64,000 nucleotides of DNA. It comes from Hyphomicrobiaceae bacterium (GTDB taxonomy: Bacteria; Pseudomonadota; Alphaproteobacteria; Rhizobiales; Hyphomicrobiaceae). Each line of letters begins with the position of its first letter. The first letter of the stretch is position 1. Location: NCBI GenBank assembly GCA_022844225.1, contig JALHMC010000006.1, forward strand, positions 62,001 through 126,000, in the 5' to 3' direction. Shown piece after piece: positions 51,507 to 54,563 of this stretch. A program made the position numbers and the translations under genes. The notes under the pieces were generated by a model. The model did not search any database and had not been told where the DNA came from. It was given only the letters and a program-made list of their open reading frames with translations.

Positions 51507-52480
51507 ACCAGGATACTGTGCTCCAGGTTCGCGACCTCGCCACCTACTTCGAACTCAGGCGCGGCGTCGTTAAGGCCGTCGACGGCGTCAGCTTCGATCT
51601 GCGCCGGGGTGAGGTGCTGGGCCTCGTCGGTGAGTCCGGTTGCGGCAAGAGCCTGACCGCGCTCTCGATCATGCGGCTGCTGCCGAAGGGGGGCGCGCGC
51701 ACCGTCCGCGGCGAGGTTCGCCTCGGCGGCGAGAACATCCTCGAGCTGCCCGCCAGCCGAATGCGCGACATTCGCGGCCGGCGGATCTCTATGATCCTGC
51801 AGGACCCGCAAACATCGCTCAATCCGGTCTTCACCATCGGCGAGCAATTGCGCGAGGCGATCTTCCGGCGCGCGCCGGCCAAGACGGCCGAGATCATGAA
51901 GGAGGCGGTTGCCGCCTTGCGTCGCGTCGAGATCGCAGCCCCGGAAAGCCGCATTAGCCAGTATCCGCACCAGATGTCGGGCGGGATGAAGCAGCGCGTC
52001 GTCGGCGCCATCGCCATGAGCGGCGAGCCACAAGTGCTCATCGCGGACGAGCCGACGACCGCGCTCGACGTCACGATCCAGCTGCAATACTTGAAGCTGC
52101 TGAAACGCCTGCAGACCGAGACCGGCATGGCGATCCTGTTCATCACGCATGACTTTGGCGTGGTGGCGCGGATGTGCGATCGCGTCGCCGTCATGTACGC
52201 CGGGCGTATCGTCGAGTGCGGCCCTGTCGCCGAGGTGTTCGAGCGTCCGGCCCATCCCTACACCCGCGCGCTGATCGCCTCGGTGCCCAAGATGACCGGA
52301 GAACGCGGACGCTTGGCCACGATCGAAGGTCAGCCACCGTCTCTGCTCGACTTGCCGCCCGGATGCCGTTTCGCACCCCGCTGTAATCTTGCCGAGCCGC
52401 AGTGCATCGCGACCTATCCGGAGACGGCCGACATCGGCCCCGCGCATACCGTTTCTTGCTGGAGGTCCGACACGCGATGA
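51503..52480 (+). CDS. ABC transporter ATP-binding protein (DppD/OppD-like)
   Basis: GESGCGKSLTAL Walker A, SGGMKQRV signature, LIADEPTTALD Walker B. Confidence 0.95.
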   Translation: MNQDTVLQVRDLATYFELRRGVVKAVDGVSFDLRRGEVLGLVGESGCGKSLTALSIMRLLPKGGARTVRGEVRLGGENILELPASRMRDIRGRRISMILQDPQTSLNPVFTIGEQLREAIFRRAPAKTAEIMKEAVAALRRVEIAAPESRISQYPHQMSGGMKQRVVGAIAMSGEPQVLIADEPTTALDVTIQLQYLKLLKRLQTETGMAILFITHDFGVVARMCDRVAVMYAGRIVECGPVAEVFERPAHPYTRALIASVPKMTGERGRLATIEGQPPSLLDLPPGCRFAPRCNLAEPQCIATYPETADIGPAHTVSCWRSDTR

Positions 52481-53502
52481 GTGACGAGCCGCTGCTGCGC
52501 GTCGAAGGCTTGAAGAAGCATTATCGCGTGACCAAGGGCGTCCTGTTCTCACGGACGCTCGGTCACGTGAAGGCTGTCGATGGCGTGTCGTTCACCCTGC
52601 GGGCCGGCGAGACGGTGGGCCTCGTCGGCGAATCCGGCTGTGGCAAGACGACGACATCGAAGCTCATTCTCAACCTCGAGGCGCCGACCGAGGGCGAGGT
52701 TCTCCTGGACGGCAAGCCGATCCATGATCTCGACGGGGCGGAGTTGATCGCCTTTCGCGCCAAGGTACAGGCCGTGTTTCAGGACCCCTGGTCGTCCTTG
52801 AATCCGCGCATGACCGTCGGGCGCACCATTGCCGAGAGCCTGATCGTCAATGGCTGGACGCAAGAGCGCATCAAGGCGCGCGTCAGCGATCTTCTGGTTC
52901 AGGTCGGGCTGCGCGCGGAGCAGGCCACGCAGTACCCGCACGAATTCTCCGGCGGCCAGCGCCAGCGCATCGCACTTGCGGCCGCGCTCGCCTCGCATCC
53001 GAAGCTGATCGTACTCGACGAGCCGATCTCCGCGCTCGACGTCTCGATCCGCGCGCAGATGATGAACCTGCTGAAGGACATCCAGGCAGAGCAGAATGTC
53101 GCCTACCTGCTGGTCGCGCACGATCTCGCCACCGTGCGGCACATGGCTGATCATACGGTCGTCATGTACCTCGGCAAGATCGTCGAGCAGGGGCCGACGG
53201 AGAGCCTGTTCCGCGACGTGCGCCATCCCTACACGAAGGCACTGTTCTCAGCCGTGCTCGAAGCCCGGCCCGGTGCCGCGGCAGACGAGATCGAGCTGAA
53301 GGGGGAGGTGCCGTCGCCGCTCAATCCGCCCGGCGGCTGCCGATTCCACCCGCGCTGCCCGTTCGCCTTCGATCGATGCAGCCACGACGAACCGGACTTG
53401 CGCGAGGTCTCGCCGGGCCACAACGTCGCCTGCCACCTCTATGATGCGGTCGAGACCGGGAAAACGAGCGACGCGGTCCGTGCGACGAGCCCTGCATCGT
53501 GA
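52477..53502 (+). CDS. ABC transporter ATP-binding protein (DppF/OppF-like)
   Basis: [42 protein letters not shown] overlap. Confidence 0.95.
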
Positions 53503-53519
53503 TAGTCGTGAGACCAAGG

Positions 53520-53598
53520 CTAGTGTAGCGCCACTGACGTTTGGTACCCGGTTGCGGCTCGGCTCGTCACCAAACGTCAGGGGCAAAAGCTACACTAG
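53520..53598. repeat. Two-segment hairpin element A
   Basis: ctagtgtagc (53520-29) / gctacactag (53589-98) enclosing ctgacgtttggt (53534-45) / accaaacgtcag (53569-80); all arms perfect. Confidence 0.9.
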
Positions 53599-53611
53599 AT
53601 ACATTGAGTTG

Positions 53612-53685
53612 TAGTGTTCCTTTGGCGCCGACATTTGCTCCCGACCTAGCCGCGAAGGGAAGCAAATGTCAGCGCCGGAACACTA
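53612..53685. repeat. Two-segment hairpin element B, diverged relative of A
   Basis: tagtgttcc (53612-20) / ggaacacta (53677-85) enclosing ggcgc (53624-28) / gcgcc (53672-76) and gacatttgct (53630-39) / agcaaatgtc (53661-70). Confidence 0.9.
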
Positions 53686-53714
53686 GGCCGCGCGAGACGA
53701 TCGAAGGATGTCGA

Positions 53715-54563
53715 ATGACCGACTGGATTGAAACCTATCGAGGTGTCGTCAGCGCCTGGGAGTGCGATATCGTCGAGCACTTTACCATCGCCTACTATTT
53801 CGAGAAATTCTCCGACGCGACACGGAATTTCGTCGAGTTGATCGGCGAGAACGAGGCGCTGGGCCCGCAGGTCGGCACCGGGCCATCGCGCCTCGTCACC
53901 ACCTTCCAGGCCGAGCTTCGCGCGGGCGCAGCGTTCCACATGACGAGCGCCGTGACGGGCATTGACGAGACCACGCTGCGGATCGGCCATCAGGTCGTCG
54001 ACACCACGAGCGGCAAGACGATCACTTGGCTGGCCGAAAGCCTCGCGCTTCCGTCCGCCATCACGCCGGCGACGCGCCAGCGGCTGGCGGCGCTCGTCGT
54101 CGAATGGCCGGGCCCCGAGGTGGCACCGCCCGCGCCCTTGCCCAAAGCCAAGGGCGAGCTGACCGGTCGCGATCGGGTCAAGCCTTGGGAGCTGGACGAG
54201 CGCGGTCACCTGTCCCTCTCGGATCACGTTCATCGGTTCTCTGCCGCGGGCATGCATTTTCTCACCTCGGTCGGCATGACCGGCGGCTACATGCACGCCA
54301 ACCGTCGGGGCTTCTCCACGTTCCTGCTTGATGTCGAGCTGATCTCTCCGGCTCTGCTCGATGAGCGGATCGACATGCACACGGCCGTGGCCCAGATCGG
54401 CAACACATCGATGCGCTACGTCCACCGCATGACCGGCGCCGACGGGCGGAATATCGCGACGATGGTTCAGGCCGGCGTGCAACTCGATCTCGATGCGCGG
54501 CGACCGACGCCCTTCCCTGCCGAGATCAGGGAGCGGGTGGCGCCACTCTTGCCGAAAACCTGA
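53715..54563 (+). CDS. Tandem hotdog-fold acyl-CoA thioesterase family protein
   Basis: ATG 53715; two thioesterase-like halves (WECDIVEHFTIAYYFEKFSDA; ELDERGHLSLSDHVHRFSAAG). Confidence 0.8.
   Translation: MTDWIETYRGVVSAWECDIVEHFTIAYYFEKFSDATRNFVELIGENEALGPQVGTGPSRLVTTFQAELRAGAAFHMTSAVTGIDETTLRIGHQVVDTTSGKTITWLAESLALPSAITPATRQRLAALVVEWPGPEVAPPAPLPKAKGELTGRDRVKPWELDERGHLSLSDHVHRFSAAGMHFLTSVGMTGGYMHANRRGFSTFLLDVELISPALLDERIDMHTAVAQIGNTSMRYVHRMTGADGRNIATMVQAGVQLDLDARRPTPFPAEIRERVAPLLPKT

Follow-up and report, generated by a model that had tools for sequence, protein, structure and literature searches.

Paired-hairpin intergenic repeats bounded by CTAG in Hyphomicrobiaceae and other Alphaproteobacteria: a probable family of non-autonomous mobile DNA elements

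Introduction

Several kinds of short repeat resemble the one described here. REPs are defined as hairpins of 20–40 bp that carry a GTAG or CGTC tag on one side (PMC3733652), and two inverted, bulged hairpins that act as one intergenic unit in mosaic arrays follow the logic of REPINs (PMC3116915, PMC3733652). MITEPsy1 duplicates CTAG or YTAA on insertion (PMC3189936). For IS630, the preferred target is TA within CTAG (Tenzen and Ohtsubo, 1991, as cited in PMC2170065).

The locus studied here, in the genome of a Hyphomicrobiaceae bacterium, holds a palindromic unit that is close to each of these systems and differs from all of them. Like REPIN/BIME elements, it is a non-autonomous, intergenic pair of inverted, bulged hairpins that forms arrays and mosaics and has subfamilies within genomes. 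Unlike them, it has hairpins of 75–80 nt, CTAG at both feet in place of a one-sided tag, a fixed 13-nt spacer, duplication of CTAG and no association with RAYT. It shares with MITEs a small size (about 167 bp), many dispersed copies, the lack of a gene and duplication of a CTAG target, but no parent insertion sequence with matching ends was seen at the hairpins inspected in two genomes (G170 and G064). MITEPsy1 and other MITEs with CTAG or TA targets are likewise short and gene-free and duplicate CTAG; the unit differs from them in that each end is itself a hairpin, that there are four arm copies and that no parent IS was found. The IS630 family has the same target, TA within CTAG, but several carriers of the unit are without DDE_3 and no IS630 with such ends was found. 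RIME and the GTAG- or CGTC-tagged REPs are also palindromic intergenic repeats, partly in the same order.

Integron attC sites, too, are similar: their single-strand hairpins are imperfect, contain unpaired bases and have conserved feet. The unit is set apart from them by its CTAG feet, by having two hairpins and by the absence of cassette genes at the copies seen. We found no earlier description of the element in the open-access literature searched; one may exist elsewhere. The repeat class is common and apparently unnamed, in a bacterial class of environmental and agricultural importance. In our view the unit is, with a probability of roughly 0.85, a copy of a MITE/REPIN-type mobile DNA element that is non-autonomous.

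Locus and unit structure

An earlier note on this DNA had described two hairpins, A and B, as side-by-side elements filling the gap at 53503–53714 between a transporter gene and a thioesterase gene. Both hairpins were found where the note placed them and occupy that gap, and the flanking genes encode an oligopeptide-type ABC ATPase and a thioesterase-like protein (Table 1). A and B are, however, halves of a single unit (53520–53686) rather than two elements. The spacing between such hairpins elsewhere is usually exactly 13 nt (94 neighbouring pairs; 13 further pairs abut via a shared CTAG).

Pairing is perfect in the outer arms of hairpin A (CTAGTGTAGC/GCTACACTAG) and of hairpin B (TAGTGTTCC/GGAACACTA; hairpin at 53611/53612–53686). 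The inner arms are 94% complementary in A (53530–53545/53569–53584) and 89% in B (53624–53642/53658–53676). The fold of A+B has an energy of −88.7 kcal/mol, compared with −56.1 ± 3.75 for shuffled sequences (z = −8.7; 0 of 200 shuffles as stable). In the 64-kb window, by which we mean the whole stretch of DNA analysed (64,000 nucleotides), a covariance model of the half-unit (R1) matches the A+B unit only.

Table 1. Features of the paired-hairpin unit and its flanking genes, in window coordinates.
Feature	Coordinates	Strand	Remarks
Complete two-hairpin unit, probably mobile	53520..53686	-	167 bp; on the minus strand when read in canonical orientation (TTCC hairpin first)
Hairpin A (AGC type)	53520..53598		79 bp; CTAG at each foot; R1 88.1 bits, from a copy used in building R1
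Hairpin B (TTCC type)	53611..53686		76 bp; inner foot GTAG here, not CTAG; R1 77.5 bits, from a copy used in building R1
Spacer between hairpins A and B	53599..53610		12 nt, compared with 13 nt in most copies
AAAA bulge of hairpin A, spacer side	53585..53588	+	4 nt, read from the sequence
TTT bulge of hairpin B, spacer side	53621..53623	+	3 nt, read from the sequence
Inner-arm motif GACGTTTG of hairpin A, proposed recognition sequence	53536..53543	+	Partner CAAACGTC at 53571-53578; common to both hairpins of the unit, type-specific
Inner-arm motif GACATTTG of hairpin B	53630..53637	+	Partner CAAATGTC at 53663-53670
Left CTAG, putative target-site copy	53520..53523		Sharp boundary in 68 copies; nested insertions
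Right CTAG, putative target-site copy	53683..53686		Sharp boundaries; nested insertions
Upstream gene, oligopeptide/dipeptide ABC transporter ATP-binding protein	52477..53502	+	PF00005, PF08352
Downstream gene, thioesterase-like (4HBT_2)	53715..54563	+	PF13279

Across copies, the element is a unit of fixed form and about 167 bp, in which two bulged-hairpin half-units lie in inverted orientation, 12–13 nt apart; it is dispersed in intergenic DNA. Complete units among the DNA-level matches are nearly always about 161–169 bp long. Both bulges point toward the spacer in 70 of 82 units, and the units that break this polarity are mostly visibly nested or abutting copies. The same plan recurs with other outer-arm types (TTGC, TCCC, GCCC/GCCT, TGGC, TGAT, GGTC, GAGC and more). 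The two ends have TGTNNCG and the GACRTTTG motif in common, yet each end pairs best within its own hairpin. Among 12 hand-picked subfamily representatives, the inner-arm motif is closer to that of the partner hairpin than to those of other units (7.6 versus 6.1 of 10; 0 of 20 000 permutations). Between copies in the same genome, arms are better conserved than loops in the genomes measured. This anatomy is clean and testable: the feet are invariant, the paired stems vary and a putative specificity motif changes in step in both hairpins.

Some arrangements are more elaborate. At L368 (G010:C2:894500-895700), two tandem units of TGAT/TCCC type have one CTAG in common; the loops of their first hairpins are identical and those of their second hairpins differ. 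At L210 (62–396 and 995–1493), several units of different types are arrayed within 1.5 kb. One hairpin loop at L370 (G010:C2:229900-231100) contains a stray internal GGGACACTAG, which resembles an arm copied into the loop.

Copies and distribution

The genome that carries the locus is assembled into 82 contigs that total 4.37 Mb and is 85% complete, and the related genomes in collections are mostly Hyphomicrobiaceae MAGs. A simple pattern search of this genome gave 21 matches, with none in the reversed control. BLAST with a 166-base consensus located eight or more units that are full or nearly so, on contigs C3, C4, C5, C6, C11, C26, C66 and C73, and a partial unit on C18. The copies on C3, C4, C5, C26 and C73 are 95–99% identical to the consensus and lie in different surroundings; the A+B unit is 87% identical to the consensus of the other copies in the genome (query 1–166).

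A covariance-model search, which the earlier note had suggested as a check, yielded further copies in the family, the order and the class. At the DNA level, matches occur in 13 of the 60 genomes searched, counting the genome of the locus. R1 finds matches in all 16 family genomes tried, at 2 to at least 148 half-units per genome, with no more than 150 candidates scored; in these counts a strong hairpin may score again on the antisense strand. R1 carriers make up 63 of the 398 sampled genomes of the order (31 of 141 genera) and 19 of the 385 sampled genomes of the class. Among the named plasmid carriers are Rhizobium, Martelella, Ochrobactrum, Agrobacterium, Aminobacter, Bradyrhizobium and Sphingobium. 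The phage records searched held no copy. Two short IMG/VR contigs classed as viral (L386 and L387) carry units of the superfamily and are the only IMG/VR matches.

Insertion sites

The edges of the unit are sharp: they fall at C/TAG...CTA/G in 61 of 68 copies, and the bases beyond are near-random. Whole units lie inside the CTAG sites of other, older copies and have CTAG on each side (L119, L122, L123, L124 and L114). At the corresponding position the host type without a nested unit, L158, has one CTAG. Since nested copies are flanked twice and the un-nested host once, CTAG appears to be duplicated on insertion. CTAG is palindromic, so a TSD of 2 bp (TA) and one of 4 bp (CTAG) read alike.

In a genome of the same genus (G002), the joined flanks of the A+B locus match continuously over 484 bp at 80% identity and the element is absent. 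This empty site has diverged, and the exact pre-insertion sequence of the locus cannot be read from it. Beside this comparison, the covariance model gave no match in L274. A second locus, L024, also has an empty counterpart in G002, and the gene there terminates at the same codon, TAG with the element and TGA in G002. No plasmids were close enough to provide exact empty sites.

By a simple gene model, the TAG of the element is the stop codon at 9 of 29 neighbouring gene 3′ ends, and 31 of 32 classifiable copies are intergenic with 0 within a gene (p about 6e-21). Three independently annotated plasmid genes, from Agrobacterium, Allorhizobium and Bradyrhizobium, show the same arrangement: at its stop, each shares exactly 4 bp with the element. 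From the edges, the nesting, the empty sites and the stop codons, CTAG, a rare sequence, is best read as a pre-existing target of insertion. Landing in a CTAG that includes a TAG stop codon would be harmless, because the unit has TAG at its edge in either orientation and the gene would still end at the same codon. Such harmless landing, together with selection against gene disruption, would explain the position of the element. The use of stop codons as landing sites would then be a simple form of harm avoidance by a selfish element.

The earlier note had offered a family of non-autonomous palindromic elements as one of two readings of the hairpins. The dispersed copies, sharp ends, empty orthologous site, nested insertions and CTAG duplication bear this out, and that the element is mobile, non-autonomous palindromic DNA is strongly supported, with movement deduced from comparison of sequences.

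Stem covariation

Compensatory variation between the arms, proposed earlier from two copies, holds in a broader sample. In 21 diverse aligned units, both partners vary in 35 of 46 stem pairs, and covariation is scored at 0.62 compared with 0.19 for shuffles and 0.04–0.13 for slid structures. Stem covariation is also strong in an alignment of 38 units, and in many subfamilies both stems remain paired. Among the 1557 stem cells of that alignment, G-U and A-C occur 10 times each. A selected RNA would favour G-U on its own strand; as G-U is no commoner than A-C, pairing looks like a property of the DNA, and the stems appear to be kept paired in DNA and not in RNA.

This bears on the other reading in the earlier note, a structured RNA with a boundary or attenuator role. 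We took the reading to cover an attenuator, a terminator or a boundary for mRNA stability, kept by selection between the two flanking genes. Such an RNA would fit the very stable fold and the placement of copies between genes. It does not fit the equal G-U and A-C counts, by which neither RNA strand is favoured, and an Rfam scan of the window gave 0 matches above the gathering score. No terminator-like site or tail was found at A+B. The orientations of genes flanking the copies are mixed (10 −−, 9 ++, 7 −+, 5 +−) with no preference for convergent genes, and G002 has the identical gene pair without the element. We therefore give the RNA reading very little credence. The element may have an incidental influence on read-through.

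Alternatively, one arm might correct the sequence of the other at stalled replication forks and copies might spread by ordinary recombination, which would account for the paired changes with no dedicated mobiliser. Nearly all stem changes are complete Watson–Crick swaps, and some recent copies, such as L024, have single-arm mismatches, both of which agree with correction. It leaves unexplained the precise CTAG-bounded insertion and the nested whole units, and likewise does not account for bulge polarity or stop-codon placement. As a full explanation it is improbable; arm-to-arm correction during replication, without hairpin recognition, could partly keep the stems paired.

Mobilization

If the unit is a non-autonomous mobile element, an enzyme encoded elsewhere would move it. 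We looked for three transposase types in carrier genomes. In the family test 9 of 10 carriers have no Y1_Tnp, and the complete genome of carrier G010 also has none; across 398 genomes it occurs in 15 of 63 carriers and 53 of 335 non-carriers, which is no association (Fisher p = 0.14). DDE_3 is absent from carriers G000, G001, G006, G010, G024 and G027, of which G001 and G010 have 100% completeness, and DDE_Tnp_1 from carriers G000, G010, G073, G104 and G390. All three are missing from the genome of the locus and from the 100%-complete G010. With their presence in carriers this inconsistent, Y1 (RAYT), IS630-type and IS4/IS5-type transposases are unsupported as the mobiliser.

A Y1 (RAYT) tyrosine transposase acting on an element of the REPIN/BIME type would fit the two-hairpin plan, but given these Y1_Tnp counts, and the hairpin length and two-sided CTAG feet noted above, this reading is highly improbable. 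Descent of the unit, as a MITE, from an insertion sequence of the IS630/Tc1-mariner or IS5 type with TA/CTAG targets is a better candidate, still on the unlikely side. The target here agrees with those of IS630 and MITEPsy1. Against such a parent stand the carriers without DDE_3 (six) or DDE_Tnp_1 (five), the failure to see any insertion sequence whose ends resemble GTGTTCCG/GTGTAGCG, and the four arm copies in two separate hairpins where a MITE would have one TIR pair.

An autonomous copy was sought at lone hairpins in G170 and G064, two complete genomes of one genus, and none was found at those inspected. Most lone model hits there lie near a decayed partner hairpin, others look degenerate, and no transposase gene lies between hairpins. 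An autonomous element with its gene between the hairpins was rejected, as widely spaced pairs at the loci have ordinary chromosomal genes between them. One plus/minus pair at L345 (1908–3420, G064:C12), 1.4 kb apart, has the orientation expected of an autonomous element; its hairpins are degenerate and not of the CTAG form, and inspection showed no obvious transposase ORF between them.

The absence of three usual transposase types from several complete or nearly complete carriers points to an unknown mobilising enzyme or to one lost after use; it is possible that the enzyme disappeared after its activity or belongs to a family outside the models used. For the non-autonomous element that we favour, the likeliest mechanism is inferred to be hairpin recognition in trans combined with CTAG targeting. 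A trans-acting transposase or recombinase would bind the inner-arm motif (GACRTTTG here) of arms folded as DNA hairpins or cruciforms, and each subfamily would have its own recognition motif, present in both hairpins. The enzyme would cut at the CTAG feet and join the unit to another CTAG, producing the TA/CTAG duplication. More tentatively, and somewhat short of an even chance, the units may form a class of paired-hairpin mobile DNA that is undescribed, extends across the Alphaproteobacteria and is served by an unknown enzyme that reads DNA hairpins, targets CTAG and depends on a subfamily-specific motif in both hairpins.

On plasmid pSR3 of Aminobacter sp. SR38, a separate intergenic repeat (L391, 1349–1455) lies 45 bp from a two-hairpin unit. 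R1 does not match this repeat, which is abundant in Rhizobium and Sinorhizobium plasmids and is probably RIME.
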